Origin: Sphingomonas sp.
Lineage (GTDB): Bacteria > Pseudomonadota > Alphaproteobacteria > Sphingomonadales > Sphingomonadaceae
Assembly (NCBI RefSeq): GCF_019635455.1
Contig: NZ_JAHBZJ010000002.1
Coordinates: 1 to 64,000, forward strand
DNA length: 64,000 nt
Direction of reading: 5' to 3'
The notes below the pieces were generated by a model, which was not told the origin of the DNA, did no database searches, and was given only the letters and a program-made list of their open reading frames with translations. The position numbers were made by a program, and so were the translations under genes. This document shows, piece after piece, positions 14,846 through 51,887 of this stretch. The stretch's first letter is position 1. Each line of letters starts with the position of its first letter.

Positions 14846-14869
14846 GCGAACGCAAAGCGGAGAAGACTC

Positions 14870-16009
14870 ATGCCTCTCGATTACGAAACGCTCCGTCTGA
14901 TCTGGTGGGTGCTGCTCGGCGTGCTGCTGATCGGTTTCGCCCTTACCGACGGGTTCGATCTCGGCACCGCCGCGCTGTTGCCGTTCATCGGCAAGACCGA
15001 TGCCGAACGCCGGATGGTCATCAATACGGTAGGCGCCACCTGGGAAGGGAACCAGGTCTGGTTCATCCTTGGCGGCGGCGCGATCTTCGCCGCATGGCCC
15101 TTCGTCTATGCGGTCAGCTTTTCCGGCTTCTACCTGGCGATGTTCCTGGTGCTGTCGGCGCTGATCCTGCGTCCGGTCGCGTTCAAATATCGCTCCAAAC
15201 ATGCCGATGCGGCATGGCGCAGCCGGTGGGACTGGGCGCTGTTCGTCGGCGGCTTCGTCCCGGCGCTGGTGTTCGGGGTCGCGGTCGGCAACGTGCTGCT
15301 CGGCATTCCCTTCCGCCTCGATAGCGACCTGCGCTCCTTTTACGACGGATCGCTGCTCGGGCTGTTCACCCCCTTCACGCTGCTGACCGGCCTCTTGTCG
15401 GTGGCGATGCTGGTGCTGCATGGCGCCGGCTGGCTGAGCCTGAAGGCCGATGGGGTCGTGCGCGAACGGGCGCAGCGCTGGGGGCAGGTCGCGGCGGTGC
15501 TGGCGATCGCGCTCTTTGCGATCGGCGGGATCTTCGTCGCCTATGCCGGCATGGGGCTGCGCATCGAAGGGGCGATCGATCCGAACGGCCCGTCCAATCC
15601 GCATTATGCCAATGCGGTCGCGGCGCCGGGTGCCTGGCTCGACAATTACGGCCGCCACCCCTGGATGCTGATCGCCCCGGTGCTCGGCTTCCTGGGGCCG
15701 GTGCTCGCGTGGCTCGGCATTCGCGGGCGGCGCGACCTCGTCGTCTTCGCCGGATCGAGCATCGCCAATATCGGCATCATCTCGACCGTCGGCCTCGCGA
15801 TGTTCCCGTTCATCCTGCCCAGCTCGATCGATCCGGGATCCAGCCTCACGGTCTGGACCGCGTCGTCCAGCCACCTCACCCTCTTCATCATGCTGGGGGT
15901 CACGATCGTCTTCCTGCCGATCGTGCTCGCCTATACCGCCTGGGCATATCGGGTGATGTTCGGCCGCGTGACCGATGAAGAGGTCCGCCTCAACCCCGAT
16001 TTCTACTGA
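14870..16009 (+). CDS. cydB: Cytochrome bd ubiquinol oxidase subunit II
   Basis: A 379-residue protein with nine or so hydrophobic helices, starting [20 protein letters not shown], followed by [18 protein letters not shown], the signature of CydB, and [20 protein letters not shown]. It forms the heterodimer with CydA. It begins 24 bases after cydA with a GGAGAAG ribosome site and is followed after 23 bases by cydX. Length matches the family. Confidence 0.96.
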
Positions 16010-16032
16010 TCGCTCGACAAGGGAGATTTCCG

Positions 16033-16149
16033 ATGTGGTATTTCGCATGGATCCTGGGCCTCGGCCTCGCCGTGAGCGTCTCGGTCCTCAACGGCATCTG
16101 GCACGAGTTCCAGACCGATACGACCCAGGACCAGACGGTCCTCGACTGA
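16033..16149 (+). CDS. cydX: Cytochrome bd accessory peptide CydX
   Basis: A 38-residue peptide, MWYFAWILGLGLAVSVSVLN followed by a charged tail beginning GIWHEF. It has one membrane helix, and the WYFAWxLG start and the NGIWHE-type end are exactly those of CydX/CbdX peptides, which stabilise the hemes of the bd oxidase. GGGAGA precedes the ATG. It lies between cydB and hemN in the same direction. It is short enough to be missed by automatic gene calling. Confidence 0.93.
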   Translation: MWYFAWILGLGLAVSVSVLNGIWHEFQTDTTQDQTVLD

Positions 16150-16171
16150 CCCGCACGCCGGACGCCCGACC

Positions 16172-17494
16172 ATGCACCGCTATCTTCCCGACCTGGCCGG
16201 GCGCGCCGTGCCGCGATACACCAGCTACCCGACCGCAGCGGAGTTCACCGATGCAGTCGGGGCGAGCGACGCCGATGCGGGGATCGCGGCGATCCGGCGG
16301 GGCGATGCGGTCTCGCTCTATCTGCACATCCCCTATTGCCACGCGATCTGCTGGTATTGCGGGTGCAATACCGGCGCGATCGGCCGGGCGGACCGGTTGC
16401 AGCACTATGTCGATGCGCTGCTCGCCGAGATCGAACGGGCCGGGCCGCGCTGCGCCGGCCGGATCGTTTCGGTGCATTTCGGCGGCGGCAGCCCCAATGC
16501 GCTGACCCCGCTTCAGCTCGCCTCGATCGGACAGGCGCTGCGCGCGCGGTTCGACTTTGCCCCCGACGCCGAATGGGCCGCCGAGATCGACCCACGCAGT
16601 TTCACGCCGGCGCATGCACACGCCTTCGCCGCGATCGGCGTGCGCAGGATCAGCGTCGGCGCCCAGACCTTCGCTCCCCATGTCCAGCGCGCGATCGGGC
16701 GCGTCCAGCCATTCGGGGTGGTGCGGCGCGCGATCGGCTTCGCACGCGACGCGGGGATCGCCCGCATCAATCTCGACCTGATGTACGGCCTGCCGGGCCA
16801 GGGCCTCGACGACATCGCCGAAACGGTCGCCCGCGCACGCACGCTGTCCCCGGACCGCGTCGCGATGTTCGGCTATGCGCATCTGCCGCGCCTGTTGCCG
16901 CGCCAGCGGATGATCGACGACGACGCGCTTCCCGACGCGCAATCGCGCTTCTGGCAAAGCGCGCTTGCCCACGATCTGCTGGTCGAACAGGGCATGGTCG
17001 CGATCGGATTCGATCATTTCGCGGCACCGGGCGACAGCCTGGCCGTCGCCGCCGAAGCCGGTCGCCTGCGCCGGAATTTTCAGGGCTTCACCGACGATCC
17101 CGCCACCGTCCTGATCGGACTGGGCGCGTCCGCGATCAGCCAGTTCGGCACCGCGATCGTCCAGAACGAAAAACATGTCGGCCGTTACCGCATGCTCGCC
17201 GCCAACGGCGTGTCGCCGGCGGTACGCGGGGTGCGCCGCGACGGCGACGACCTGCTGCGCGGCGCGGCGATCGAACGGCTGTTGTGCGACGGCGCGATCG
17301 ATCTCGATACGCTGCCGTTCCGCATCCGCCCGGACGAACGCCGCTGGATCGAACTGGTCGATGCGGGGATCGTCACCCGTTCGGGATCGCGGGTCGCGAT
17401 CACCCGAACCGGTCGCCCCTATGCGCGCCTTGCCGCAGTGCTGTTCGATCGCCATCGCGCGGCCGGCCCGGCACGGTTCAGCAAGGCGGTCTGA
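16172..17494 (+). CDS. hemN: Oxygen-independent coproporphyrinogen III oxidase (radical SAM)
   Basis: A 440-residue radical SAM enzyme. LYLHIPYCHAICWYCGC contains the CxxxCxxC cluster motif, with the extra Cys typical of HemN. VHFGGGSPNAL and EIDPRSFTPAH are further HemN landmarks, and the C-terminal domain is present (LIGLGASAISQFG). It decarboxylates coproporphyrinogen III to protoporphyrinogen IX without oxygen. It starts 22 bases after cydX, so heme supply and the heme-rich bd oxidase appear to be co-expressed, a sensible low-oxygen pairing. Confidence 0.94.
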   Translation: MHRYLPDLAGRAVPRYTSYPTAAEFTDAVGASDADAGIAAIRRGDAVSLYLHIPYCHAICWYCGCNTGAIGRADRLQHYVDALLAEIERAGPRCAGRIVSVHFGGGSPNALTPLQLASIGQALRARFDFAPDAEWAAEIDPRSFTPAHAHAFAAIGVRRISVGAQTFAPHVQRAIGRVQPFGVVRRAIGFARDAGIARINLDLMYGLPGQGLDDIAETVARARTLSPDRVAMFGYAHLPRLLPRQRMIDDDALPDAQSRFWQSALAHDLLVEQGMVAIGFDHFAAPGDSLAVAAEAGRLRRNFQGFTDDPATVLIGLGASAISQFGTAIVQNEKHVGRYRMLAANGVSPAVRGVRRDGDDLLRGAAIERLLCDGAIDLDTLPFRIRPDERRWIELVDAGIVTRSGSRVAITRTGRPYARLAAVLFDRHRAAGPARFSKAV

Positions 17495-17525
17495 CCCCCC
17501 TTTCCTTTCACGATATCGTCCACTC

Positions 17526-17562
17526 AAAAAGGGGGCGGCACCATCAGGCGCCGCGCCCTCCT
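17526..17562 (-). terminator. Intrinsic terminator of ompW
   Basis: Read on the minus strand, a GC-rich stem (GGGCGCGGC pairing, with a small bulge, to GCCGCCCC around a GCCTGATGGT loop) is followed by TTTTT at 17530-17526. It lies about 25 bases past the stop of ompW. It also faces the end of hemN, which ends at 17494 on the other strand. Confidence 0.75.
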
Positions 17563-17585
17563 TCTGCTTCGGGCGAACGGTCGCG

Positions 17586-18239
17586 TCAGAACCGCATGCC
17601 GATCCCCACGCCAGCGACGATCGGATCGAGGTGGAAGCGGGTGGTGTTGACCGCCCCACCGGTGGTCAGCCGCGCCTTCGTATCCATGTCGATATATTTG
17701 ACGTCGAGGTTGAGGAACATCTTCTCGTTCAGATCGATATCGACACCGGCCTGAACGGCATAGCCGAAGCTGTCGCCCAGCTTCACCTTGGTCGGGCCGA
17801 CCGCTGCGACCAGGTCCTTGCCCGCCTTGCTGTCGTAGAAGATCGTATAGTTGACGCCGACGCCGACATAGGGTCGCACCTTCGCTTCGGGCGCCAGGTG
17901 ATATTGCAGCGTCAGCGTCGGCGGCAGCGCCCAGGTGCTCGCAAGCTTCTCGACGCCGTTCAGCGCGCCGCGCCCCTTTGCCTCGTGCCGGGTGGTCGAT
18001 GCGATCAGTTCCAGCCCGATATTGTCGCTCACCATATAGGTGCCGTCGATTTCCGGCATGAACGCCGCGCCGACATCCGCCGATCCGGTGGGGAATCCCG
18101 GCTGAACCGAATCCGATCCGCCGGTCGGCGCGACCACGATCCCGCGCAGGCGGACGATGACGTCGCCTTCCTTGGCGAAGGCCGGGGCGGCGGTGGCGAT
18201 CAGCCCGCCAAGCGCGGCGGCGGCGATTAGTCTCTTCAT
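17586..18239 (-). CDS. OmpW-family outer membrane protein
   Basis: A 217-residue protein with a signal peptide (MKRLIAAAALGGLIATAAPA, cleavage near AFA-KE) and an OmpW-type beta-barrel: GDVIVRLRGIVVAPT in the first strand, NIGLELIASTTRHEAKG, LPPTLTLQYHL, VRPYVGVGVNYTIFYD, and a C-terminal strand ending VAGVGIGMRF with the terminal Phe recognised by the barrel assembly machine. OmpW forms a narrow barrel for small hydrophobic molecules; in several bacteria it is controlled by oxygen regulators. Placement between hemN and fixLJ fits that pattern. The ATG at 18239 was chosen for the signal peptide; the frame is open further upstream. Confidence 0.92.
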   Translation of the reverse strand: MKRLIAAAALGGLIATAAPAFAKEGDVIVRLRGIVVAPTGGSDSVQPGFPTGSADVGAAFMPEIDGTYMVSDNIGLELIASTTRHEAKGRGALNGVEKLASTWALPPTLTLQYHLAPEAKVRPYVGVGVNYTIFYDSKAGKDLVAAVGPTKVKLGDSFGYAVQAGVDIDLNEKMFLNLDVKYIDMDTKARLTTGGAVNTTRFHLDPIVAGVGIGMRF

Positions 18240-18364
18240 GACACTGTCCCTGTCTCTAGCGATGCGGATCAAGGCCGCGGCTGCGGTCTGGCTCCGGTGG
18301 CGCAAAGGCGGAATTGGGAGTTTTCCGGATGGTAGTTTCGCCTAGCCGGACTAGACTCCGGCGC

Positions 18365-19843
18365 ATGGACCCGGGGGATCACGATCCGCGTGCGGCTGCC
18401 GTCGCGCTGCTCGACGCCGATACGCGGCGCGGCGTGCTGGTCGTGGATGAGGGTGGCGCGATCCTGCACTGGAATGCCGGTGCGGCGGCGATCTTCAACC
18501 TGTCGCGGGACCAGGCAATGGGCGCCGACGCCGCGCGCTTCTTTCCGGGCGAGGCCGATTTTCCCGCCCGGTTGCGCGACGTCGCCGCTGCCGGCGCGCC
18601 GGTGCGGCAGGAATGGTGGCTGGTCCGCGCCGACCAGTCGGAATTTCTCGCCGATGTCCTGATCGCGTGCGCGGGCGATCGGTTCGCGATCGGCGTGGAC
18701 GATATCACCGATCGCCGCGCGGTCGCGCTGTCGCTGGCACGCAGCGAGGCGCATCTCGGATCGATCCTCGCCACCATCCCCGATGCGATGGTGGTGATCG
18801 ACGAGCGCGGATTGATCCAGTCGTTCAGCGCCGCCGCCGAACGGCTGTTCGGCTATCGCCAGGTCGAACTGATCGGGAAGAATATCAGCCAGCTGATGCC
18901 CGATGGCGACCGCGCCCGGCATGACGACTATATCGCCCATTACCGCCGCACCGGGGAAAAGCGCATCATCGGCACCGGCCGCATCGTGGTCGGCCGGCGC
19001 CGCGACGGCACCGAATTTCCGCTGGAACTGGCGGTCGGCGAAACCCGGATGGAGGGACACCGGCTGTTCACCGGCTTCATCCGCGATCTCACCGAACAGC
19101 AACAGGCCGAATTGCGGCTCAAACAGCTTCAATCCGAACTCATCCACATCTCGCGGGTCAGTGCGATGGGGACGATGGCATCGACCATCGCGCACGAATT
19201 GAACCAGCCCCTGGCGGCGATCGCCAATTACATGGAGGCGAGCGGCGACCTGCTCGCGCGCGGCGACGCGGATCCCGAACTGTTGCGCGAAGCCGTCGGC
19301 CAGTCGGCGAGCGAGGCGTTGCGCGCCGGAGGGATCGTGCGCCGGCTGCGCGATTTCGTCGCCCGCGGCGAGGTCGCGCGTGAGGTGGAGAGCCTGCCCG
19401 CACTGATCGCCGACGCCAGCCGCCTGGCGCTGATCGGCGCGCGCGAACGCGGCGTGCGGGCGCTGTTCGATCTCGATCCCGATGCCGAACTGGTGCTGGT
19501 CGATCGGGTCCAGATCCAGCAGGTGATCGTGAACCTGGTCCGCAACGCGGTGGAGGCGGTCGATGGCCAGCGCGTCCGCGACATCACCCTCATCTCCCGC
19601 CGCGTCGATCCCGACCGGGTCCAGGTGACCGTGGCCGATACCGGCGATGGAATCGCCGCGGAGGTTCGCGAGCGCCTGTTCGAGGCGTTCAATTCCAGCA
19701 AGGAACGTGGCATGGGGTTGGGCCTGTCGATTTGCCGGACGATCGTCGAGGCGCATGGCGGGCGCATCTGGGCCGAGGACGTCGCCGGTGGCGGCACGGC
19801 CTTTCACTTCACTCTGGAAAGCGGGACTGTCGATCATGACTGA
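18365..19843 (+). CDS. fixL: Oxygen-sensing histidine kinase FixL (heme PAS)
   Basis: A 492-residue sensor: PAS domain (about 15-115), second heme PAS (about 125-240), then HisKA with STIAHELNQPLAAIANY (phospho-acceptor His277) and an HATPase with VNLVRNAVEAV and GMGLGLSICRTIVEAHGG. The second PAS has RARHDDYIAHYRRTG and IIGTGRIVVGRRRDG. The first His (H186) fits the FixL heme ligand and the Arg 20 residues later (R206) the oxygen-sensing Arg, the same 20-residue spacing as His200 and Arg220 in Bradyrhizobium FixL. No transmembrane segment is seen, so it is soluble. The ATG at 18365 was chosen; upstream codons lack domain character. It overlaps fixJ by 8 bases. Confidence 0.93.
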   Translation: MDPGDHDPRAAAVALLDADTRRGVLVVDEGGAILHWNAGAAAIFNLSRDQAMGADAARFFPGEADFPARLRDVAAAGAPVRQEWWLVRADQSEFLADVLIACAGDRFAIGVDDITDRRAVALSLARSEAHLGSILATIPDAMVVIDERGLIQSFSAAAERLFGYRQVELIGKNISQLMPDGDRARHDDYIAHYRRTGEKRIIGTGRIVVGRRRDGTEFPLELAVGETRMEGHRLFTGFIRDLTEQQQAELRLKQLQSELIHISRVSAMGTMASTIAHELNQPLAAIANYMEASGDLLARGDADPELLREAVGQSASEALRAGGIVRRLRDFVARGEVAREVESLPALIADASRLALIGARERGVRALFDLDPDAELVLVDRVQIQQVIVNLVRNAVEAVDGQRVRDITLISRRVDPDRVQVTVADTGDGIAAEVRERLFEAFNSSKERGMGLGLSICRTIVEAHGGRIWAEDVAGGGTAFHFTLESGTVDHD

Positions 19844-20498
19844 CGCGCGCGTCGTTCACATCGTTGATGACGAGGAGTCGGTTCGCCGATCGGTCGGCTT
19901 CCTGCTCAAGACGTCGGGCTTCACCACCCATGCGTGGGATTCGGGAACCGCGTTTCTGCGCCAGGCGAAACATGCCGAGCCAGGCTGCGTACTGCTCGAT
20001 CTGCGGATGCCGGAGATGGACGGGCTGGAGGTGCAGCGCCGGTTGAACGCAGCCGGCGTCGCGCTGCCCGTCATCCTGCTCACCGGCCATGGCGACGTGT
20101 CGAGCGCGGTGGCGGCGATGAAGGAGGGGGCGGTCGATTTCCTCGAAAAGCCGTTCGAAAAGGCGCGGCTGATCCAGGCGCTCGACACCGGTTTTGGCAA
20201 GCTCGAACAGAGCCACGCCGCCGACCTTGCCGCGCACGAGGCGGAAACCCGCCTCGCCGCGCTGACCCCGCGCGAACGCGAGGTGCTGGCGGGGCTGGTC
20301 GCGGGACAGCCGAACAAGACGATCGCCTTCGATCTGGGCATCAGCGCCCGTACCGTCGAGGTGCATCGCGCCAATGTGATGACGAAACTGGGCGTGCGCA
20401 GCCTGTCCGAAGCGCTGCGCATCGCTTTTGCCGCCGGGCTGGGCGGACCGCCGGCGGACGCCGGCATGCCGGATGCGCACCCTAGGGACATTCCGTAG
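19836..20498 (+). CDS. fixJ: Two-component response regulator FixJ
   Basis: A 220-residue regulator: receiver (1-125) with VVHIVDDEESVRRSVGFLL, phospho-acceptor D55 in VLLDLRMPEMDG, Thr in LLTGHGDVSSAV and Lys in FLEKPFEK; then a LuxR-type helix-turn-helix (LTPREREVLAGLVAGQPNK, ISARTVEVHRANVMTKL). The TPREREVL and HRANVMTK wording is that of FixJ. It would receive phosphate from FixL when oxygen is low and activate transcription of microaerobic genes; cydABX, hemN, ompW and the peptide cluster are the nearby candidates. The start overlaps the fixL end by 8 bases. Confidence 0.94.
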   Translation: MTDARVVHIVDDEESVRRSVGFLLKTSGFTTHAWDSGTAFLRQAKHAEPGCVLLDLRMPEMDGLEVQRRLNAAGVALPVILLTGHGDVSSAVAAMKEGAVDFLEKPFEKARLIQALDTGFGKLEQSHAADLAAHEAETRLAALTPREREVLAGLVAGQPNKTIAFDLGISARTVEVHRANVMTKLGVRSLSEALRIAFAAGLGGPPADAGMPDAHPRDIP

Positions 20499-20553
20499 CG
20501 ACGATCCGCCGTCGGCGCGGCAGGGTGGGATGCGTTGTCCGGAGAGATGCCCC

Positions 20554-20934
20554 ATGCCCGTCCTTCACGCCGACCCCATGTCCGCGCCATCCGACCGCGT
20601 CCTGCTGGTCGAGGATGACGATGCCGTCCGCCGATCGATCCACCTGCTGCTTCATGGCCGCGGATATGATGTCAAATCCTATTCCGGCGCGGCGATGGTG
20701 GTCGGCGACGGCGACGCCGAACGGGCCGGCTATCTGATCACCGATTACCGGCTGGCCGATGGCGATGGCATCGGCGTGCTGCGCGGCCTTCGTCGGCGCG
20801 GCTGGCACGGACGCGCGGTGCTGGTGACGGGTCATTACAGCGACACGCTGTGCGCGGCGGCGCTGGCCAGCGGGTTCGACGCGGTTCTCGAAAAGCCGCT
20901 CAAACAGGGGCAGCTTCTCGCCGCGCTCGCCTGA
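20554..20934 (+). CDS. Stand-alone receiver-domain protein
   Basis: A 126-residue protein made only of a response-regulator receiver: VLLVEDDDAVRRSIHLLLHG, phospho-acceptor D64 in LITDYRLADGDGIG, Thr in AVLVTGHYSD and Lys in VLEKPLKQGQLLAAL. There is no DNA-binding or enzyme part. It lies 55 bases after fixJ in the same direction, with GGAGAG before the ATG at 20554. Single receivers near fixLJ, such as FixJ-like decoys or FixT-type inhibitors, can act as phosphate sinks or feedback proteins; its role here is not known. It is separated by 66 bases from the peptide-synthetase cluster. Confidence 0.85.
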   Translation: MPVLHADPMSAPSDRVLLVEDDDAVRRSIHLLLHGRGYDVKSYSGAAMVVGDGDAERAGYLITDYRLADGDGIGVLRGLRRRGWHGRAVLVTGHYSDTLCAAALASGFDAVLEKPLKQGQLLAALA

Positions 20935-21000
20935 GCGCGGATCGCGCAAAAATCCGTCGTCGTTAATCCGATGAATACCGCTGCGGCGTAAGTGGGCGGC

Positions 21001-22848
21001 ATGACCCAAGCCTCCACCGCGCTGCCCGCATCGCCCCATGGCGACTCCGCAACCTCGCGCCATGGACATGGCGCACCGCCATTCGCGGTCCATGCCGCGA
21101 TCGCCGCGCATGCCGCCACGGATCCGCAGCGCGTCGCGCTGAACGCGGCATGCGGTACGCTCAGCTATGGCGAACTTGACGCGCGCGCCACCCGCTTGGC
21201 CGCGTGGATGCGGGACAAGGGCGTGACGCCGGGAACGCTGGTCGGCCTGTGCCTCGAACGTTCGTTCGATCAGATCACCGCCGCGCTTGCCGCGTGGAAA
21301 GCGGGCGCCGCCTATCTGCCGCTTGATCCGGCATGGCCCGACGGGCGCTTGCGCACCATCGCCGCCGATGCGGGCTGCGCGCTGTTGCTGGGCCGCGCCG
21401 ACACCGCCGATCGCCTGCCCGGTCTTCCCGATCTTCACGTCCTCGACTGGGATGCGGTCCCGACCTCCGCCGGTGCGCCGGTCGCGCCCGACAGCGACGC
21501 GCTCGCCTATGTCATCTACACATCCGGCACCACCGGAACGCCAAAGGGCGTCGAGGTGACCCATGCCAATCTGTCGCACCTGATCGCGTGGCACAATGAC
21601 GCGTTCGGCATCACTGCCGAGGATCGTGGCAGCCATCTTGCCGGGCTCGGCTTCGACGCCTCTGCGTGGGAGGTCTGGCCCTATCTCGCCGCTGGCGCAT
21701 CGGTCGCGCTCGCGCCCGACGATATCCGCACCTCGGATACGCTGTTGCGCGCGTGGCTGCTGGTACAGGGGATCACCGTCGCGTTCGTGCCGACCCAGCT
21801 TGCCCAGGACCTGATCCGCGACGATTGGGCGCGGGGCAGTTCCTTCCGCCTTCTCCTCACCGGCGCGGACCGGCTGGTCGAGCGTCCGCGCGCCGGCCTC
21901 TCCTTCGCGCTGGTCAACAATTACGGCCCGACCGAATGCACCGTCGTCGCGACATCCGCCGTCGTTCCCGACGGCGGGGTCGAGCGCGGCCTGCCCGCGA
22001 TCGGGCGACCGGTGGGCGAAACCGTCATCCGCATCCTCGACGCCGGCGGCCAGCCGGTCGCGGACGGCGCATCGGGCGAACTCTTCATCGGCGGCCCGCA
22101 GGTTGCGCGCGGCTATCGCGGTCAGCCCGAGCTGACCGCCGCGCGCTTCGTGACGATCGATGGCGCACGCTTTTACCGCACCGGCGATCTCGGCGCCTGG
22201 CTGCCGGACGGACAGATCGCGTTTCAGGGCCGCATCGACGACCAGGTGAAGGTCCGCGGTCATCGCGTCGAGCCTGAGGAAACCGCGAGCGTGGTGCGTA
22301 CCCATCCGCTGGTCCGCGCCGCGGCGGTCGTCGCCGCGCCGGGTGCCGATGGCGGCGACATGCTGGTCGCCTATGTGGTGCCGGCCGGCGAGATCGAGGC
22401 CGAAACGCTGCGCGACTTCCTGGCGCAAACGCTGCCCGACTACATGATTCCCGGGGCCTATGTCCGCCTCGACGCGCTCCCGCTCACCGCCAACGGCAAG
22501 CTCGACAAGCGCGCGCTGCCGGCGCCCAGCGCGGCCAATTCGCTCGCCTCGGCGGGGTTCGCGGCGCCGGAGACGCCCGCCGAACAGCGGCTCGCCGAAA
22601 TCCTCGAACAGGTGCTCGGGCGCGGCAATGTCGGGATCGACGACAATTTCTTCCTGCTCGGCGGCCACTCGCTGCTCGGCACGCAGGTCGTCCTGCGCGC
22701 GGGGGAAGCGTTCGGACTCGACCTCGCGCTCCGCGATATCTTCGTCGCACCGACCATCCGGCAACTCGGCGCGCTGATCGAGGAGCGGCTGATCGCGATG
22801 ATCGAGGCGATGAGCGACGACGAGGTTCGTTCGCGCGCCGGCCAATAG
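21001..22848 (+). CDS. NRPS initiation protein, adenylation plus carrier domains (predicted Leu)
   Basis: A 615-residue A-T protein with no condensation domain. Adenylation motifs in order: LSYGELDARA, VIYTSGTTGTPKGVEV, LGFDASAWEVWPYL, VNNYGPTECTVV, FYRTGDLGAWLPDG, VKVRGHRVEPEE, LTANGKLDKRAL. The carrier motif is DNFFLLGGHSLLG with phosphopantetheine site S557. Lining up the binding-pocket positions by eye with gramicidin synthetase GrsA gives D-A-W-F-L-G-N-V-V-K, a known leucine code. The protein should load Leu onto its own carrier for a downstream partner. Next comes the P450 gene after 22 bases. ATG 21001 was chosen over a GTG three codons earlier. No MbtH-like gene is seen nearby. Confidence 0.93.
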   Translation: MTQASTALPASPHGDSATSRHGHGAPPFAVHAAIAAHAATDPQRVALNAACGTLSYGELDARATRLAAWMRDKGVTPGTLVGLCLERSFDQITAALAAWKAGAAYLPLDPAWPDGRLRTIAADAGCALLLGRADTADRLPGLPDLHVLDWDAVPTSAGAPVAPDSDALAYVIYTSGTTGTPKGVEVTHANLSHLIAWHNDAFGITAEDRGSHLAGLGFDASAWEVWPYLAAGASVALAPDDIRTSDTLLRAWLLVQGITVAFVPTQLAQDLIRDDWARGSSFRLLLTGADRLVERPRAGLSFALVNNYGPTECTVVATSAVVPDGGVERGLPAIGRPVGETVIRILDAGGQPVADGASGELFIGGPQVARGYRGQPELTAARFVTIDGARFYRTGDLGAWLPDGQIAFQGRIDDQVKVRGHRVEPEETASVVRTHPLVRAAAVVAAPGADGGDMLVAYVVPAGEIEAETLRDFLAQTLPDYMIPGAYVRLDALPLTANGKLDKRALPAPSAANSLASAGFAAPETPAEQRLAEILEQVLGRGNVGIDDNFFLLGGHSLLGTQVVLRAGEAFGLDLALRDIFVAPTIRQLGALIEERLIAMIEAMSDDEVRSRAGQ

Positions 22849-22870
22849 CACGACCAAATTGGGGGCAATC

Positions 22871-24133
22871 ATGACCATCCAGTCCAGCATGACCGGCGCC
22901 ACACCCGCGCCGTTCGACCCGAGCCTCAGCCTGTTCCAGCTGCTCGATCCCGCCGTCCATGCCGACCCCTATCCCTTCTACCGGCGCCTGCGCGAGCAAG
23001 CGCCGGTGATGTGGGACCCGTTCATGCACACCTGGGTCGTCACGCGGTACGACGACGTGATGCTGGTGCTGAAGGAATTTTCGGCCGACCGCACGCCCGA
23101 TCCCAAGAAGATGGAGGCGCTCGGCCTGCCTTCGCTTGGACCGGTGGCGGACCTGATGGCACGGCAGATGCTGTTCCTCGACGCGCCTGCCCATACCCGC
23201 CTGCGCAAATTGTGCATGAGCGCGTTCACCCCGCGCCGGGTCGAGGCGATGGAGGGCAAGATCCATGAGATCGCCCACAGCCTGATCGACGCCCAGATCG
23301 CGCGCGGCGAGATGGACCTGATCGCCGATTTCGCCGAACCCTTTCCCGCGATCGTCACCGCCGGTCTGCTCGGCGTGCCGCTGGAGGATCACCGCCAGCT
23401 CAAGGCCTGGTCGGCAACCTTCGCGGAAATGCTCGGCAACTTCCAGCACAACCCCGATCGCATCCACGGCGTCCTGAAATGCGTCGCCGACATGACCGGA
23501 TATTTCCGCGACGCGGTGCGCGAACAGGAGCGCAATCCGCATGACGGCCTGATCCGCTCGCTGATGGACGCCGAAGTCGATGGCCAGCGCCTGTCCGAGG
23601 AAGAGGTGATCGCCAACACCATCGTCACCATGGTCGGCGGTCAGGAAACGACCACCAACCTGATCGGCAGCGGCATCCTGACCCTCACCCGCCAGCCCGA
23701 CAAGCTGGCACAGCTGCGCGACAATCCCGACATTATCGAAACCGCGCTGGAGGAACTTCTGCGGTTCGAAACGCCCAGCCAGCACACCGCGCGCATCGCC
23801 CGCCACGATGTCGAACTGGGGGGGCAGACGATCCGCAAGGGCGATGCGGTGATGGCGATCATGGCGGCGGGCAATCGCGACCCGGACCGTTTCCCCGATC
23901 CCGACACGCTCGACCTGACCCGCACCGACAATCGTCACCTCGCATTCGGCTGGGCCGCGCATTTCTGCTTCGGCGCGGCGCTCGCGCGGATGGAGGGGCG
24001 CACCGCCTACACCGCGCTGCTCGGCCGGCTGGGCGACCTGCGCGTCACGGCGGACAAGCTCGAATGGCGTGCCAATTCCGGGTTGCGCGGCCTGGCGGAA
24101 CTGCCGGTCGCGTTTCGGGAGATCGCGGCGTGA
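22871..24133 (+). CDS. Cytochrome P450, candidate carrier-bound amino acid hydroxylase
   Basis: A 420-residue bacterial class P450: I-helix VGGQETTTNLIG (acid-alcohol pair), ExxR motif in EELLRFETP, and the heme loop FGWAAHFCFGAALAR with the thiolate ligand C366. The third residue of the loop is Trp-Ala-Ala rather than the usual Gly, a mild departure. It lies between the A-T protein and the second NRPS protein and overlaps the latter by GTGA, so it is translated with it. P450s in the A-T, P450 arrangement (as in novobiocin and nikkomycin assembly) beta-hydroxylate an amino acid while it is tethered to the carrier. Beta-hydroxylation of Leu is the natural inference. A GGGGG ribosome site precedes the ATG. 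Confidence 0.9.
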   Translation: MTIQSSMTGATPAPFDPSLSLFQLLDPAVHADPYPFYRRLREQAPVMWDPFMHTWVVTRYDDVMLVLKEFSADRTPDPKKMEALGLPSLGPVADLMARQMLFLDAPAHTRLRKLCMSAFTPRRVEAMEGKIHEIAHSLIDAQIARGEMDLIADFAEPFPAIVTAGLLGVPLEDHRQLKAWSATFAEMLGNFQHNPDRIHGVLKCVADMTGYFRDAVREQERNPHDGLIRSLMDAEVDGQRLSEEEVIANTIVTMVGGQETTTNLIGSGILTLTRQPDKLAQLRDNPDIIETALEELLRFETPSQHTARIARHDVELGGQTIRKGDAVMAIMAAGNRDPDRFPDPDTLDLTRTDNRHLAFGWAAHFCFGAALARMEGRTAYTALLGRLGDLRVTADKLEWRANSGLRGLAELPVAFREIAA

Positions 24134-27100
24134 ACGCGCATGTGGCGCTGAGCGACTCCAAGCGCGCGCTGCTCGAAAAGATGATGCGCGGCGGCGGCGC
24201 GGCGGCGGCCGCGAAGCCGCTCGCGATCCAGAAGCGCGATCCGGCGGCGACGATCCCGCTTTCCGCCGACCAGCGTCAGGTGTGGCTGCACGCCATCATG
24301 GCGCCGGACATGCCGCTCTATAACGAATCGATCACCATCCACCGGTTCGGCAGTTTCGACCGCGCGGCGATGGCGCGCGCGGTCAACGAAATCCTGCGCC
24401 GGCACGAGGCATGGCGCACCGGCTTCGTCGAACAGGACGGCGTCCTGATCCAGATGGTGCGCCCGCACCGCGACCTCGACCTCCCCTTCGACGATGTCAG
24501 CCACCTGCCCGAAGCCGAGCGCGACGCCGCCGCGCTGAAGATCGGCAGCGACGATGCGCGGCGTGCCATCGACCTGTCGGACGCGCCGCTGTTCCGCGCG
24601 CGGATCGTGAAGCTCGCCGACGACAATCACCGCCTCTATTTCACGCTGCACCACATCATCTTCGACGGCGTATCGATCTATCGCGTGATCGTCCCCGAAC
24701 TGGCGGCACTCTATGAAGCCTTTGCCGCCGGGCGTGCCTCGCCGCTGCCGGATCCGACGCTGCAATATGGCGACTATACGCTGTGGCAGGCCGATTATCT
24801 TCAAACCCCGGCGATCCGCCGTCAGGTCGATTACTGGCGGGACACGCTCGCCGATGCTCCGCCCAAGCTCGAACTGACCGGCGATCGCGCAAAGCCCGCG
24901 CGCCCGACCCATGCCGGATCGATGGAAACCTTCCTCATCCCGCTCGACCTGATCGAGAAGGTGCAGGAGATGAGCCGGCGCGAGAGCGTCACCCCCTATA
25001 TGACGCTGCTCGCCGCCTATCATGCGATGCTGCACCGCTATTCGGGGGAAGAGGACATCATCGTCGGCGGTGTCACCGATCTGCGGCGTCGCCCCGAGCT
25101 CGAGAATGTGGTCGGCTATTTCCTCAACACCATCGCGCTGCGGGCCAGGCCGACCGGCGACAAGCCGTTCCGCGCCTTTCTGTCTGAAGTGCGCGACAGC
25201 GTGCTGGGCGCGCTCGCCGCCAGCGAAGCGCCGTTCGACGAAGTGGTGCGCGCGCTCGACATCCGGCGCGAGCCGGGCGCCCATCCGCTGTTCAACTGCC
25301 TGTTTTCAATCGAACCCCCAGTCGATCCCTTTCCCGCAGGCTGGGACCTGACCCAGATGGACGTGGTGGTCGGCGGCGCGAAGTTTGACCTCTATCTCGA
25401 ACTCGACGAGCGGCCCGACGGCATGCTCGGCCGCTTCCTCTATTCGACGGAGCTGTTCGACGCCGCCACGATCCGTCGGATGATCGGCCATTGGCTGACG
25501 ATCATCGCCCGCATCGTCCAGGACCCGTCCACGCCTCTGCGCGACCTGCCACTGCTCGACCCGGTCGAGGAGGCGACGCTGGCGACCATGTGGAACCACA
25601 CGGACGCGCCGGCGCCGGCCCTGCTCCCCGACGCCTTCCGCGCACAGGTCGTGGCGCATCCGGACGCGCCGGCGATCCGGTACGACGGCGCGACCACCAG
25701 CTATGCCGCGCTCGACGCCCGCGCCGATGCGATCGCCGCCGCGCTGCGCGCCGCCGGCCTGGACAAGGGGGACCTGGTCGGCGTCTGCCTCGACCGCACG
25801 CCCGATATGGTCGCGGCGCTGTTCGCGACGCACCGGATCGGCGCGGCCTATCTGCCGCTCGATCCCGATTTTCCCGCCGCGCGGCTCGACTATATCGTCG
25901 CCGATGCCGGCGCGGCGGCGCTGCTGACCGAGCACGCATTGGGCGACGTCCTGCCCGGCTGCACCCTGCCGCGCATCTTCGTCGATCAGGTCGGCCCCGT
26001 CGGCACGACCGTCGCATCGACGCCGACCGCGCCCGACGACCTTGCCTATGTCCTCTACACCTCCGGCTCGACCGGCAATCCCAAGGGGGTGGAGATCGAT
26101 CAGGGCGCGCTCGCCAATCTGCTCGGCTCCTTTGCCCGCGAACCGGGGTTCGGCGCCGGCGATTCGCTGCTGGCGGTCACGACGCTCTCGTTCGACATCG
26201 CCGCGCTCGAACTCTTCCTGCCGCTCGTCGCGGGCGGTGAGCTGATCCTCGCCACGCGTGCCGTCGCGAAGGACCCCTATGCCCTGAGCGCGCTGATCGC
26301 CGAGGCGCGGCCGACCGTGATGCAGGCGACGCCTGCGACCTGGCGCGGACTGATCGAAACCGGCTGGACCGGGCTTCCCGGCCTGCGCATCCTGTGCGGG
26401 GGCGAAGCGCTGCCGCGCAGCCTTGCCGACCAGCTCATGCCGCGCTGCGCGGAGCTGTGGAACGTCTATGGCCCCACCGAAACCACGATCTGGTCGACGA
26501 GCGCCCGCGTCGAAGCGGGTGAAGGACCGGTCCCGATCGGCCGGCCGATCGCCAATACGTCGGTTCATGTCCTCGACGCGCATCACAATCGGATGCCGAT
26601 CGGCCAGATCGGCGAATTGTGGATCGGCGGTGCGGGTCTCGCGCGCGGGTATCGCGGGCGCCCGGACCTGACCGAAGAGCGGTTCGTCACCATCGGCGGC
26701 GCACGTCTCTACCGCACCGGCGACCTTGCGAAATGGACGCCCGCCGGCGCGCTGATGTGCCTCGGCCGGACCGACAATGACGAGAAGATTCGCGGCTATC
26801 GCGTCGCGGTGGAGGAGATCGAGGGCGCGCTCGCCCGCCATCCCGACATCGCCGCCGCTGCGGTGCGCAGCTGGCCCGATGCATCGGGCGAGCGATCGCT
26901 GGCCGCCTATCTTGTTCCGCATGGCGAGATGCCGGGCCGCGCCGCGCTGCGCATGCACCTTGCCGCCAGCCTCCCCGACTACATGATCCCCGCGCATTTC
27001 GAGTCGCTGGCACAGCTGCCGATGACGCCCAACCGCAAGGTCGATCGCAAGGCGCTGCCGCGGCCGGGTGGCACCGCCGCTGCCGATCTGACTCCGCCAC

Positions 27101-28125
27101 GGGGCGAGGACGAAGCGCGTCTCGCCACGATCTGGTGCGACCTGCTGCGTATCGAGCGGATCGGGCGGGACGACAATTTCTTCGAACTTGGCGGACATTC
27201 GCTGCTCGTCGCCAAACTGCTGGTCGCGATCGACCGCGAATGGGGCCGGCGGATCGGCATGGCGGAGATCTTTCGCGCGCCGACGCTGCGCGCGCTCGCC
27301 GCGCAGATCGCCGGTGGCGGGGCGAGCGACCTGCATGCCTTCGTCCCGATCCAGCCGGACGGAGACGGCATCCCGATGATCTGGCTCGACGGCGGTCCGC
27401 GCTTTCAGGCGCTGGCCCAGCGGCTGGGCGGCGACCGCCCCTTTTACGGACTTCAGCTCGGCCCGATCCTCGAGGCGATACTGACGCCCGACACCCGGTT
27501 CGAGGAGATCGCCGCCGCCGTCGTCGCGATCATCCGGCGCAATCGGCCGCGCGGCCCCTATCTGCTCGGCGGATGGTGTACCAACGGCATCCTCGCCTAT
27601 GAGGTCGCGCGGCAGTTGCGTGCCGCCGGCGAAGACGTGCCGCTGCTGGCACTCGGCCATTCGATCAATCCGGTCTCCTTTCTGGCGATCACGCCCGCGC
27701 GGATGCGCATCGCTAAGGCGCGCTATCATCTCGCCATGTGGAACCGCCTGCCCCTGGCGCAGCGCCTCACCTATGCGATGGACCGGGCGCGCGGGGTGAT
27801 GGAGGATGTCGGCGCGCCCGAAGCGACGCACGACAATCCCAATTTCGAGCGCGTCACGCGCGGCCTCGAGCGTGCCGCCTATGGCTATGTCCCCGGCCCC
27901 TATGACGGTGCGCTCGCGCTGTTTCAGCCCGCCGACCGGCTGAGCGTCCTCGACACCGCACCGGGCTGGCGTCCGCTCGCCCATGGCGCGTTCGAGGTCC
28001 ACGATATCCCCGGCACGCATGACGATCTGGTCGATCCACCGCATGTCGATGTCTTTGCCGCGCGGATGCGCGAGGCGATCGATCGCGCGATCGATCCCGC
28101 ACGCGTCGTGGCCGCCGCCGCGTGA
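24130..28125 (+). CDS. NRPS module C-A-T with unusual thioesterase (predicted Gly)
   Basis: A 1331-residue protein. Condensation (about 35-470): HHIIFDG at 174-180 is the catalytic HHxxxDG. Adenylation (about 500-975): YVLYTSGSTGNPKG, SFDIAALELFLPL, VYGPTETTIW, LYRTGDLAKW, pocket read by eye as D-I-L-Q-L-G-V-I-W-K, one step from the known glycine code DILQLGLIWK. Carrier: DNFFELGGHSLL with S1024. Thioesterase (about 1055-1320): YLLGGWCTNGILAYEVA has Cys1150 in place of the usual Ser; His1177 stands exactly where the catalytic Asp of SrfA-TE is (27 residues on); IPGTHDDLV gives the catalytic His1297. Start is the GTG overlapping the P450 stop. It overlaps the PPTase by GTGA. It would join the hydroxy-Leu unit to Gly and release or cyclise the product. 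Confidence 0.93.
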   Translation: MNAHVALSDSKRALLEKMMRGGGAAAAAKPLAIQKRDPAATIPLSADQRQVWLHAIMAPDMPLYNESITIHRFGSFDRAAMARAVNEILRRHEAWRTGFVEQDGVLIQMVRPHRDLDLPFDDVSHLPEAERDAAALKIGSDDARRAIDLSDAPLFRARIVKLADDNHRLYFTLHHIIFDGVSIYRVIVPELAALYEAFAAGRASPLPDPTLQYGDYTLWQADYLQTPAIRRQVDYWRDTLADAPPKLELTGDRAKPARPTHAGSMETFLIPLDLIEKVQEMSRRESVTPYMTLLAAYHAMLHRYSGEEDIIVGGVTDLRRRPELENVVGYFLNTIALRARPTGDKPFRAFLSEVRDSVLGALAASEAPFDEVVRALDIRREPGAHPLFNCLFSIEPPVDPFPAGWDLTQMDVVVGGAKFDLYLELDERPDGMLGRFLYSTELFDAATIRRMIGHWLTIIARIVQDPSTPLRDLPLLDPVEEATLATMWNHTDAPAPALLPDAFRAQVVAHPDAPAIRYDGATTSYAALDARADAIAAALRAAGLDKGDLVGVCLDRTPDMVAALFATHRIGAAYLPLDPDFPAARLDYIVADAGAAALLTEHALGDVLPGCTLPRIFVDQVGPVGTTVASTPTAPDDLAYVLYTSGSTGNPKGVEIDQGALANLLGSFAREPGFGAGDSLLAVTTLSFDIAALELFLPLVAGGELILATRAVAKDPYALSALIAEARPTVMQATPATWRGLIETGWTGLPGLRILCGGEALPRSLADQLMPRCAELWNVYGPTETTIWSTSARVEAGEGPVPIGRPIANTSVHVLDAHHNRMPIGQIGELWIGGAGLARGYRGRPDLTEERFVTIGGARLYRTGDLAKWTPAGALMCLGRTDNDEKIRGYRVAVEEIEGALARHPDIAAAAVRSWPDASGERSLAAYLVPHGEMPGRAALRMHLAASLPDYMIPAHFESLAQLPMTPNRKVDRKALPRPGGTAAADLTPPRGEDEARLATIWCDLLRIERIGRDDNFFELGGHSLLVAKLLVAIDREWGRRIGMAEIFRAPTLRALAAQIAGGGASDLHAFVPIQPDGDGIPMIWLDGGPRFQALAQRLGGDRPFYGLQLGPILEAILTPDTRFEEIAAAVVAIIRRNRPRGPYLLGGWCTNGILAYEVARQLRAAGEDVPLLALGHSINPVSFLAITPARMRIAKARYHLAMWNRLPLAQRLTYAMDRARGVMEDVGAPEATHDNPNFERVTRGLERAAYGYVPGPYDGALALFQPADRLSVLDTAPGWRPLAHGAFEVHDIPGTHDDLVDPPHVDVFAARMREAIDRAIDPARVVAAAA

Positions 28126-28772
28126 ACGCCCCCGCACGGATCAACCGCGCGGCCGTCGAAACCGTGCTGCTCGACCTGCGGGCCGAACCGCATCTGGTGA
28201 GCCGTTGGCACGCGATGATCGGCCGCGACGAACGCGCCCATGCCGCCCGGATCCGCGACCCGCGCGCGCGCGATCGCTTTATCGCCCGCCGCGCGCGCCT
28301 GCGCGAAACGCTCGCCGTGCGGCTCGGCCAGGCGCCGGAGGAGGTGCGGATCGAACCCGATCCGAACGGAAAGCTCGTCCTGCCCGATGCGCCGTGGCTG
28401 CACTTCAACCTGTCCAGTTCGCACCATCTGGCGCTCGTCGCGCTCGCCGACGTGCCGGTCGGCTGCGACATTGAATTTCGCGACGGCGCGCTGGCCTGTC
28501 CAAAGGTCGCCGAACGCCTGTTCTCCGCGCGTGAGGTGGATGAACTGCGCGCGCTGCGACCCGACCAGTGGGCGACCGGATTCTACAATGTCTGGACCCG
28601 GAAGGAGGCGTATGTGAAGGCGCTCGGCCTTGGCCTGTCCTATCCGCTCGACCGGTTCGACGTGACCGTGACGCCCGGCGCGCCGGCCGCGATCACGCGC
28701 GGTGGCGAGGGGTGGCGGTTGCTGTCGTTTCAGCCGGCGCCGGACTTTCAGGCGGCGGTCGCGATCGGTTGA
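28122..28772 (+). CDS. Sfp-type 4'-phosphopantetheinyl transferase
   Basis: A 216-residue protein with the Sfp signatures: LHFNLSSSHHLALVAL, VGCDIEFRD (Mg-binding Asp and Glu) and FYNVWTRKEAYVKALGLGL (the WxxKEA motif). It attaches the coenzyme A arm to the carrier serines of both synthetase proteins. The GTG start at 28122 overlaps the NRPS stop (GTGA), making the enzyme the last gene of the cluster. It ends 25 bases inside the end of a convergent flippase gene. Confidence 0.92.
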   Translation: MNAPARINRAAVETVLLDLRAEPHLVSRWHAMIGRDERAHAARIRDPRARDRFIARRARLRETLAVRLGQAPEEVRIEPDPNGKLVLPDAPWLHFNLSSSHHLALVALADVPVGCDIEFRDGALACPKVAERLFSAREVDELRALRPDQWATGFYNVWTRKEAYVKALGLGLSYPLDRFDVTVTPGAPAAITRGGEGWRLLSFQPAPDFQAAVAIG

Positions 28773-30238
28773 ACCCGCGGCGCCGGCTGGCGGCCCCGCA
28801 CGACCGCGACCGCTTCGCTCAACACGTCGCCGGCAAAGGCCGCGAGCCATCCGAAATAGGCGATCCCGCCGACGCTGACCAGCCACGCCAGGTGCAGCGG
28901 CGCGGAGGGCAGCGCGACGAACCGGTCGGCCAGCATCACGATGCCGCCCATCGCCAGCGCCGCCAGTACCACCGGCTCCAGCGTGCGGGCGAGCAGCGAG
29001 GCGCGCAGGCCGATCACCGGCAGCGCGCGCCAGGCGGTGATCGCCAGCAGCGCGGCATAGGCGGCGATCCACGAGGCGGCGAGGCCTGCCACGCCCCAGA
29101 CGAGGCCGACCGCGAAACAGGCGGGCAACAGCATCGCGCCGATCATGCCCGTCTTTGCCGCGATGCCCGGACGCCCCATCGCGCCGCATGCGGGCGCGAA
29201 CAGCACCTGCAACGTCATCGCCGGCATCGCGATCGCGACCAGGCGGACGATCGGCCCCGCCGCGATCCATTTGGGTCCCAATACCGTCGCCACGACCGGC
29301 TCCGCCGCGACCGCCAGCCCGACATAAAAGGGCATGGCGACCAGCATCACCATCCGCGCGGACCGGGCAAACCCCATCGCGACCGCATCCCGGTCATCCT
29401 GCATCCGCGCATAGACCGAAAAGGCGACATCGTTGATCGCCGGCACGAATTTCGAAACCAGGATCTGGGTCAGGAACAGCGCGGTGGTATATAGGCCCAG
29501 CGTCGTGGGGCTGAGCACACGCCCGGCCAGAAACACGTCGGCCTGGCTCTGCACCACCCAGAAAAACTGTCCCGCCGCCATCAGCCCGCCGAATTTCGCC
29601 AGCGCGCCAGCGCCGCGAAAATCGAACAGCGGGCGATAATGGTGGCCCGAAATGCGCGTCATCCCGATCGCCCGCGTCGTGAACAGCACGGCGGGGGCAA
29701 GGATCAGCGTCCAGACCCCCAGCCCGGCGAACGCGCCGGCAAGCGCCGCGAGCGCTCCGGTGATCGACGACAGGAAATAGACCTTTGCCTGCGGCTTGAA
29801 ATCGATCGCGCGCGCCAGCAGGGCATAGGGGAAAGCCACGAAGGGCGTCGTGAAATAGAGGAACGCCTGCACGCGCAGCAGATCCGCGACGATCGGCTGG
29901 CGGAAATAGGCGGCGACCAGCGGCGCCATCAGGAACTGGAGCAGGCCCAACCCGAAATTGAGCGCGATCAACATGCCATAGAGTTGCCGGATCGACCGTT
30001 CGTCAGCCTCCGGCTTCTGGATCAGCCCGCTCGCCAGTCCCGCGCCGTTCAGCATGTTGAGCACGGTCAGCACCACCTGCGTCATCGCGAACAGGCCGTA
30101 ATCGTGCGGATCGAGGATGCGGATGACGAGGAACGTCGCGCCCCAGGTGATGACCTGTCCGGCGATCTGCGCGCCCGAACGCCAGATCACCGCCTGCCGC
30201 GCGAGCGCGAAGGCGGTGGACGGCTTTTCCGACGGCAT
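28748..30238 (-). CDS. Wzx-like polysaccharide flippase (MATE/PST superfamily)
   Basis: A protein of about 496 residues with 12 or more hydrophobic helices and the Wzx/PST opening (WRSGAQIAGQVITWGATFLV, ILDPHDYGLFAMTQVVLTVL) and later FWVVQSQADVFLAGRVLSPT. Such proteins flip lipid-linked sugars, less often other amphiphiles, across the inner membrane. Its 3' end overlaps the PPTase gene convergently, so it is not part of that operon; use in exporting the peptide product is possible but unsupported. The ATG at 30238 with GAGGG upstream was preferred; ATGs at 30256 and 30265 are alternatives. No glycosyltransferases are close. Confidence 0.85.
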   Translation of the reverse strand: MPSEKPSTAFALARQAVIWRSGAQIAGQVITWGATFLVIRILDPHDYGLFAMTQVVLTVLNMLNGAGLASGLIQKPEADERSIRQLYGMLIALNFGLGLLQFLMAPLVAAYFRQPIVADLLRVQAFLYFTTPFVAFPYALLARAIDFKPQAKVYFLSSITGALAALAGAFAGLGVWTLILAPAVLFTTRAIGMTRISGHHYRPLFDFRGAGALAKFGGLMAAGQFFWVVQSQADVFLAGRVLSPTTLGLYTTALFLTQILVSKFVPAINDVAFSVYARMQDDRDAVAMGFARSARMVMLVAMPFYVGLAVAAEPVVATVLGPKWIAAGPIVRLVAIAMPAMTLQVLFAPACGAMGRPGIAAKTGMIGAMLLPACFAVGLVWGVAGLAASWIAAYAALLAITAWRALPVIGLRASLLARTLEPVVLAALAMGGIVMLADRFVALPSAPLHLAWLVSVGGIAYFGWLAAFAGDVLSEAVAVVRGRQPAPRVQPIATAA

Positions 30239-30375
30239 CGAACCCTCACGCGACATGGACCGCATATCGCGCGACGGCGATTAAGGGCGCGTAAACCGAA
30301 CAACGTCGCGCAACCGGCCGCTGGACGATGGGCGCGGCGCACGGCATGGCGTGCGCGAATCGAGGAAGGGACGCA

Positions 30376-47581: not shown

Positions 47582-48472
47582 TCAAAGGGCGCGGCGCACC
47601 GGCGGCATGACGTTGCAGATATCGGCACCGCCGGCCGGCAGGGTGAAAAAGGGCGGCTCGCGGTTTTCGCGCGCCCGCACCCATGCGGCGAATCGGGCAT
47701 TGTCTGCCGCGCGATATTCGAAGCGCGGCCGCGCCTTAGTCGGCAGCTCGCTCGCCAGCCGCACGCTGACGATCGGAACATAGCGCGCGGGATCCTCGTA
47801 CAATCCCAGGCCGCCGCCGGTGCCGCGCGGCAGCGATGAGAGGTGTTCGATCCCGTCGATCACCCGACCGACGATCGCGATGTTGCGATCGAGATGGCGC
47901 GGCCCATGGCCGATCACCGCATAGAGATCGCCGCCGCTGCCGGTGCTGGGGGCGAGATCGCGCGCGACGCCGACCATGCCATAGCAATGCGGCATCCACG
48001 CCACCTTGCCGTTGGTGGCCAGCGGCCACCCGTCCGCGCTGTGTCCCGCTCTGATCGAATAGGGATCGCGCCGCGCCAGCCGCGTGACCGCATCGTACCG
48101 CGCCCAGTCATATTCCGCCGGCGGCTGCGCAACGACGCCCGGCGGCAGCGGCTTCTTCTCGCTCGCATCGCCCCATTGCACGACATAATTGTCATGCACG
48201 CGATAGATGGTCTCGCCATCCCACCAATGCGCACGCGCCAGCGCGCGAATATTGGCCACATGCGCCGGTGCGTAGCGCGGCGCCAGGCGGATCACGATCC
48301 GGCGCCGGTCGGTCAGCGTCATCACCAGCAACTCGTCGGCGGGAATCGGCTTCCAATCGGTCGGCAGCGGATCCGACGGCTTGGGCGGTGCGGCGGTCGA
48401 AGAGGGCGCCGGGGCAGGCGCGACAGGCTGAGCCTGCGGCGCGAACGCAAGGGCGAGAAGCAGCGGAACCAT
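47582..48472 (-). CDS. Cyclophilin-type peptidyl-prolyl isomerase, exported
   Basis: A 296-residue protein with an N-terminal signal-like stretch (MVPLLLALAFAPQAQP) and a Pro/Ala-rich linker, then a cyclophilin domain: RIVIRLAPRYAPAHVANIRA, WWDGETIYRVHDNYVVQWGD, MPHCYGMVGVARDLAPSTG, GGDLYAVIGHGPRHLDRNIA. It would isomerise X-Pro bonds in the periplasm. The insertion between the first and second halves (about 35 residues with SEKKPLPPGVVAQ) is longer than in the minimal form. It ends near the tRNA-Ser gene on the left side. Confidence 0.88.
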   Translation of the reverse strand: MVPLLLALAFAPQAQPVAPAPAPSSTAAPPKPSDPLPTDWKPIPADELLVMTLTDRRRIVIRLAPRYAPAHVANIRALARAHWWDGETIYRVHDNYVVQWGDASEKKPLPPGVVAQPPAEYDWARYDAVTRLARRDPYSIRAGHSADGWPLATNGKVAWMPHCYGMVGVARDLAPSTGSGGDLYAVIGHGPRHLDRNIAIVGRVIDGIEHLSSLPRGTGGGLGLYEDPARYVPIVSVRLASELPTKARPRFEYRAADNARFAAWVRARENREPPFFTLPAGGADICNVMPPVRRAL

Positions 48473-48558
48473 TGCGACACGCTGACACGCCGGCAGGCAC
48501 AGCGCAACGCTTGCGGAGCGCGCGTCAAGCCACTAGGGCAGCGCGTTCCAGCGTATGC

Positions 48559-48649: not shown

Positions 48650-48712
48650 TTTACCTAATAAAATCAACAACTTAGAAGGCGCAAAGCCGAACTAGCCAAC
48701 ATCCCGGCCATC

Positions 48713-49483: not shown

Positions 49484-49499
49484 GCGAGGATAGTCCAGC

Positions 49500-50980: not shown

Positions 50981-50996
50981 ACACCCCTAGAGCGGA

Positions 50997-51810: not shown

Positions 51811-51887
<77 letters not shown>

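Follow-up and report, generated by a model that had tools for sequence, protein, structure and literature searches.

What does the release domain of a nonribosomal peptide synthetase (NRPS) do when its nucleophile and the residue at the customary place of its catalytic acid both depart from the norm? The question is raised by a gene in the window, the 64,000-nucleotide stretch of Sphingomonas sp. DNA analysed here (contig NZ_JAHBZJ010000002.1, positions 1 to 64,000 of the forward strand), which encodes a module of condensation, adenylation, peptidyl carrier protein and thioesterase domains (C-A-PCP-TE). A sequence-only reading had noted Cys for Ser and His for Asp in this thioesterase (TE), and had likened it to the TEs of obafluorin and sulfazecin synthesis that close strained rings. 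Comparison with its relatives indicates that it is a conserved, previously unstudied variant present in many sphingomonads and not a broken enzyme, and its oddity is the invariant bulky His at the usual Asp place. The reading we prefer, with a probability of about 0.6, is that of a working Cys-type release TE with the triad Cys1150-His1297-Asp1269 and with His1177 as a second active-site His, from which an oxidised Leu joined to Gly would be released. In the terms used in PMC11298585, the usual Asp place after strand beta-6 is position I and the place after beta-7 is position II; the sphingomonad TEs sharing Cys/His/His are referred to below as the clade. The relevant features are:

24130..28125 (+), C-A-PCP-TE module protein (domains from Pfam; A-domain code DILQLGVIWK, glycine type)
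27343..28122 (+), thioesterase domain, residues 1072-1331 (PF00975 over cut-off; AlphaFold2 mean pLDDT 88.6)
27388..27390 (+), Asp1087 in WLDGG of the oxyanion-loop region, another candidate acid (Asp in 29/30 distinct clade rows, Gly in 1)
27577..27579 (+), Cys1150, the nucleophile, in GGWCTNG (from translation; Cys in 30/30 clade rows)
27658..27660 (+), His1177, occupying position I in place of the usual Asp, in LLALGHSINP (from translation; follows model strand 101-105)
27934..27936 (+), Asp1269 at position II, candidate triad acid, in the FQPAD loop (model residue 198, 2 residues past strand 191-196)
28018..28020 (+), His1297, the catalytic His, in GTHDD (after model strand 217-222)

Translated from its GTG start, 24130-28125 gives 1331 residues containing Pfam C, A, PCP and TE domains (their places were counted from an upstream ATG at 24064), and the TE is the sole PF00975 match reported across the 3.15-Mb assembly (20 contigs). 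The ATG at 24064 is also open and was considered as the start, but the first 22 residues that it adds are matched only in the nearest of four relatives compared, and the GTG at 24130 overlaps the stop codon of the preceding cytochrome P450 gene as GTGA; the GTG is thus the better start. Translation bears out the residues named in the sequence-only reading: Cys1150 stands where Ser is usual, His1177 lies exactly 27 residues further on in place of Asp, and the catalytic His1297 is present, each in 30/30 clade rows. The domain has an alpha/beta-hydrolase fold directly after the PCP (Pfam over cut-off after PP-binding, and the AlphaFold2 model), and its model gives VIA Z values of 19-24 against TEs of NRPSs, polyketide synthases and fatty acid synthases, the best among the matches listed being 23.6 to 3tej, 23.2 to 6ojd and 22.6 to 4zxh. 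Most of the best fold matches listed belong to type I TEs, RedJ being matched as well, and Cys is the less common form of nucleophile in type I TEs.

When 298 genomes of the family were searched, 12 gave a match at E<=1e-10, and the four best matches besides the window all combine GGWCT[NS]G with a His in place of the Asp. Patterns drawn from the window and these four relatives identified 27 loci in a scan of the genome_contigs collection, a pattern match being required, such that members further removed may have escaped. Sphingomonas, Stakelama, Hephaestia and Croceibacterium are the genus names among the records, the others being metagenome-assembled genomes of Sphingomonadaceae, Sphingomonadales or Alphaproteobacteria and one uncultured bacterium. 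Cys1150, His1177 and His1297 are each present in 28/28 (the window and the 27 loci), and when all sources were pooled, 53 rows reduced to 30 distinct ones, 30/30 of them Cys/His/His with a lowest pairwise identity of 36%. As this set was picked by a GWC[TS] motif, its Cys count is partly a product of selection; a profile search free of that motif, covering 295 genomes of the genus, gave 23 with a match at E<=1e-30, comprising 21 Cys/His/His, two Cys/Asp/His and no Ser (the window and 20 of the other 22 were read together, and the last two as L075 and L045).

Most PF00975 members have Asp at position I, which the window TE does not. Among the 58 distinct outside TEs compared, 54 have Asp at position I, two have Glu, one Gly and one Asn, and none has His; the nucleophile is Ser in 43 and Cys in 15. 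These rows were gathered by searching with a profile of the clade or with the TE of the window, and are therefore nearer relatives and no random TE sample. With 37 of the 260 TE columns invariant, one invariant column alone is weak evidence. The same cannot be said of three catalytic places that are all invariant when 0/58 outside rows have His at position I, and the His rows form one group in an 87-row tree (Shimodaira-Hasegawa-like approximate likelihood ratio test, SH-aLRT, 99). These alignments indicate that Cys/His/His is a real conserved trait; chance or sequencing error was considered and dropped, as 30 distinct relatives agree. Two outside Cys-type TEs, L058 (Gly) and L072 (Asn), are also without Asp at position I and are possibly further cases of moved acids.

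Where, then, is the acid? Topology and spacing indicate that it is probably supplied from another loop, a possibility that the sequence-only reading had itself named as counting against its view. Position II is Asp (14) or Glu (16) in the 30 distinct clade rows, and Asp or Glu occupies that column in 19/58 outside rows, the outside counts depending on how MAFFT aligned a loop whose length varies. A loss of all acid function was also entertained, and was dropped with an acid kept at position II in 30/30 rows. Structure prediction, proposed earlier as a check, gave a TE fold and placed the acid after beta-7 in two models, which represent the two halves of the clade. In the window model the His (residue 106) is directly after beta-6 and the acid (198) two residues past beta-7, and in that of L032 (mean pLDDT 84.5) His 107 is directly after beta-6 and the acid, 198, two past beta-7. 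The nucleophile is 27 residues from position I in the window, in NocTE (S1779-D1806) and in ObiF1 (C1146-G1173), and the acid lies 28 residues from the His, compared with 30 in both ObiF1 (D1254-H1284) and SulTE (D2926-H2956). On these grounds Asp1269 at position II is likely to be the triad acid.

The ObiF1 TE has Cys1146 and His1284, with Asp1254 as its position II acid and Gly1173 occupying position I (PMC6668435, in which the strands are numbered 5 and 6), and the SulM TE has Cys2818, His2956 and Asp2926 at position II (PMC11298585). PMC11298585 describes these two as the only structurally known NRPS TEs with a position II acid, which in combination with Cys is proposed there to serve strained-ring closure or small products. 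Likening the window TE to the obafluorin and sulfazecin enzymes was apt, both being Cys-type, whereas the view that its missing Asp makes it odder than they are holds only in that position I lacks Asp; ObiF1 and SulM lack it too, with their acid after beta-7. ObiF1 (obafluorin, beta-lactone forming; PDB 6n8e) resembles the window TE in its Cys, acid-free position I, acid after beta-7, C-A-PCP-TE order and small product, but has Gly where the window has His, a beta-hydroxy amino acid C-terminus and an MbtH-like domain after the TE. SulM (sulfazecin, beta-lactam forming) shares the Cys, the triad Asp after beta-7 and a small product, but has Gln-Cys-Asn instead of Trp-Cys-Thr and a sulfamate nucleophile on diaminopropionate where the window has Gly. 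ObiF1 and SulM are without an entry among the Foldseek and VIA matches listed, an absence that proves nothing. Placement beside type II TEs in phylogenies is a further mark of these two, whose sequences are outside the trees made here. The uncharacterised AB3403 TE of Acinetobacter baumannii (4zxh) is among the nearest in sequence and fold, among the matches listed, and has the GGWC loop and the C-A-PCP-TE order, but differs in having Asp at position I. The NocB TE (nocardicin, epimerase-hydrolase; 6ojc, 6ojd) is alike in fold (Z 23.2) and in an extra active-site His near position I, although it has a Ser nucleophile and Asp at position I, and its extra His is two residues past that Asp and bonded to the nucleophile (PMC6711958).

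The AB3403-like combination of Cys with Asp at position I, which the window TE does not have, is present in a sister group consisting of C-A-PCP-TE proteins in two genomes of the genus (L117 and L118; 44% identity over the module). Their TEs have the GGWC motif, while position I is Asp (in LLDT) and position II is Glu (in FQPRE), and like the window's their genes adjoin those for an A-PCP, a P450 and a 4'-phosphopantetheinyl transferase (PPTase) and have a Gly-type A code. Sister and clade are grouped with support of 100/98, and the next rows, L050 and L007, are also Cys/Asp (99/84), in a tree from which 10 long-branch outside rows were dropped and in which the clade was thinned from 29 to 21 rows. 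Since a sister with Cys and both acids joins the clade at 100/98, the second acid was probably in place before the first was lost. The simplest order suggested by these sequences is a change from Ser to Cys, then acids at both places, then a change from Asp to His at position I, and the sister is a plausible bridge. With the sister added, the clade's own branch has support of 88/44, compared with SH-aLRT 99 before, and with the sister/clade split weakly supported, a sister nested in the clade that has reverted to Asp is conceivable. The sister cassettes differ further in an extra stand-alone AMP-binding protein with no PCP (L119, 13705-14937, minus strand, 410 aa; L120, 13563-14897, minus strand, 444 aa), which has YGHEE or WGQDE where YGPTE is expected and looks degenerate, yet is kept in both genomes.

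No other TE compared here has His at position I (0/58 outside rows, 0/2 sister rows). In ObiF1 the G1173L change lowers product up to about 100-fold, which is explained in PMC6668435 by a blocked pantetheine arm. Because the place is always His in the clade though a bulky residue harms ObiF1, His1177 is unlikely to be a passive filler, and it may be in contact with the Cys, the acyl group or His1297. Four residues of the lid region, Lys1196, His1200, Tyr1215 and Arg1219, are invariant in the clade (28/28) and vary outside it.

What is released can be approached through the rest of the cassette, which has four core genes in about 8 kb. The other genes are:

20992..22848 (+), stand-alone A-PCP protein (Pfam AMP-binding, AMP-binding_C and PP-binding; code DAWFLGNVVK, leucine)
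22859..24133 (+), cytochrome P450 (Pfam p450; best PDB sequence match 3ejb, a P450 'biotin biosynthesis' enzyme)
28122..28772 (+), 4'-phosphopantetheinyl transferase (Pfam ACPS)
28748..30265 (-), MOP-family flippase, possible exporter (Pfam Polysacc_synt_3; best NCBIfam model a MOP flippase, under cut-off)

By tblastn of 28 loci, the A-PCP is present in 27, the P450 in 28, the C-A-PCP-TE in 28, the PPTase in 26 and the flippase in 17. The A-PCP exception is L040, in which a contig end cuts the locus and the match is the module's own A domain, and the PPTase was not found by tblastn in the L020 and L027 loci. Apart from these five, neighbour clustering yielded no additional gene shared by more than 4 of 29 loci; Sphingomonas and Stakelama that have been cultivated are among the carriers of the cassette. 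The heme loop of the P450 is FGWAAHFCFG in 28/29 rows, with Ala at the place where the usual P450 heme motif has Gly.

A-domain codes were read by anchored alignment (28 rows, L040 lacking), with the anchors mapped onto the GrsA numbering of the ten code positions. The first code is DAWFLGNVVK in 26 of the 27 readable rows and DAWFLGDVVK in L033 (L028 is unreadable), and the second is DILQLGVIWK in 9 and DILQLGMIWK in 19 of 28 rows, DILQLGLIWK being the textbook Gly code. DAWFLGNVVK is given as a leucine code in PMC7524897 and PMC12283262, and DILQLGMIWK as a glycine code in PMC12283262. The codes are nearly constant although TE identity drops to 36%, and the C, PCP and P450 motifs are intact in the clade. 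A small Leu-Gly derivative is, on these codes, quite likely to be the product. Oxidation of carrier-bound residues by P450s is known or has been proposed, PlyR with Leu being one example (PMC3943440). The P450 of the cassette probably oxidises carrier-bound Leu, and the oxidation of the product probably lies on that residue.

From the residues, their conservation, the gene order, the A-domain codes and the predicted fold we infer the triad hydrogen bonds, the role of His1177, the P450 chemistry and the product. Leu would be loaded onto the stand-alone A-PCP, where the P450 would probably oxidise it; the C domain would then couple it to Gly on the second PCP, and the dipeptide would be passed to Cys1150, where the acyl-Cys thioester would be resolved with His1177 beside the acyl group. 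The simplest release would be attack by the Leu amine, giving oxidised cyclo(Leu-Gly), or by water. A diketopiperazine in preference to another release is conceivable, if somewhat doubtful, and hydrolysis or transfer is about as likely as a cyclic dipeptide; the best NCBIfam model for the P450, a cyclodipeptide-synthase-associated one, is a weak hint at most of a cyclic product. More tentatively, this could be a new TE class in sphingomonads, in which a Cys-His triad completed at position II is joined by a dedicated second catalytic His at position I; this His would act as a base or bind the acyl group, and the oxidised Leu-Gly dipeptide would be released in a way not described before (e.g. 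as an enzyme-controlled diketopiperazine or a seven-membered lactone).

Several points weigh against a working Cys-type TE of this design. Position I must be small in ObiF1, yet carries a bulky His here, and the closest solved folds, among the matches listed, are the TEs of EntF, NocB and AB3403, not those of ObiF1 or SulM. Asp1275 (29 Asp and 1 Glu of 30) and Asp1087 (29/30) are other candidate acids. Asp or Glu at position II is common in position-I TEs too, AB3403 having Asp in that column, and a position II acid proves little by its presence alone; the putative His1297-Asp1269 bond is taken from the topology of predicted folds. The cyclodipeptide-associated match of the P450 is also far below its cut-off (207.6 vs 500 bits).

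The alternative that survives best is an ordinary release, in which the TE hydrolyses the dipeptide or transfers it to an external amine, the Cys/His layout doing no more than tune a small pocket; it fits either triad, overlaps the reading we prefer, and is a serious contender at a little under even odds. In the SulM study position II is associated not just with ring strain but also with small products (PMC11298585), and the invariant lid residues Lys1196, His1200 and Arg1219 (28/28) could bind an anionic acceptor. The Cys form, however, disfavours hydrolysis in ObiF1 and SulM, in which a Cys-to-Ser change brings hydrolysis on (PMC11298585, PMC6668435). Nor does the cassette contain a conserved acceptor gene by neighbour clustering.

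A true Cys-His-His triad, in which His1177 orients His1297 and position II merely helps, would have a parallel in the herpesvirus proteases, where a second His orients the catalytic His (Ser-His-His). His1177 is invariant (30/30) at the exact place of the triad Asp in alignments with AB3403 and NocB, where a merely tolerated residue would be expected to drift; but the position II acid is invariant as well, and a sister with both acids makes a hand-over to position II the simpler account, so that we consider this triad unlikely. Strained-ring closure to a beta-lactone or beta-lactam, which the sequence-only reading had brought up, is not supported, and is very improbable even though a Cys nucleophile with a probable position II acid is what ObiF1 and SulM have: the A domain beside the TE has a Gly-type code in 28/28 rows, Gly has no beta-carbon or beta-nucleophile from which such a ring could be formed on the terminal residue, and the nucleophile lies in Trp-Cys-Thr, not Gln-Cys-Asn. 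A decaying or non-catalytic TE is hardly credible, for while two triad residues depart from the usual ones, 30/30 distinct rows, down to 36% identity, retain the Cys, the two His and an acid at position II, and the C, PCP and P450 motifs are intact.

As a working Cys-type release TE, this would be a third lineage with probably the ObiF1/SulM layout, but one with Gly as its terminal residue and with position I filled by a bulky His. Together with its sister, which has acids at both places, it allows a test of whether position II is tied to ring strain or just to small products, and of how a triad acid moves between strands in evolution.

A literature search found no report of the cassette or of the TE variant, and a plasmid search gave 24 records, every one below 60% identity. 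The flippase gene (28748-30265, minus strand) faces the cassette and could encode an exporter or reflect a polysaccharide link. Directly before the cassette, at 13262-20934 of the window, are cytochrome bd oxidase genes and genes for a radical SAM protein, OmpW and a PAS histidine kinase with response regulators, which may reflect low-oxygen control; homologues of the radical SAM protein (54%) and OmpW (57%) are also near the cassette in L017. Further along the window, at 48001-56000, GC content falls to 0.604 and 0.626, compared with 0.65-0.69 elsewhere.

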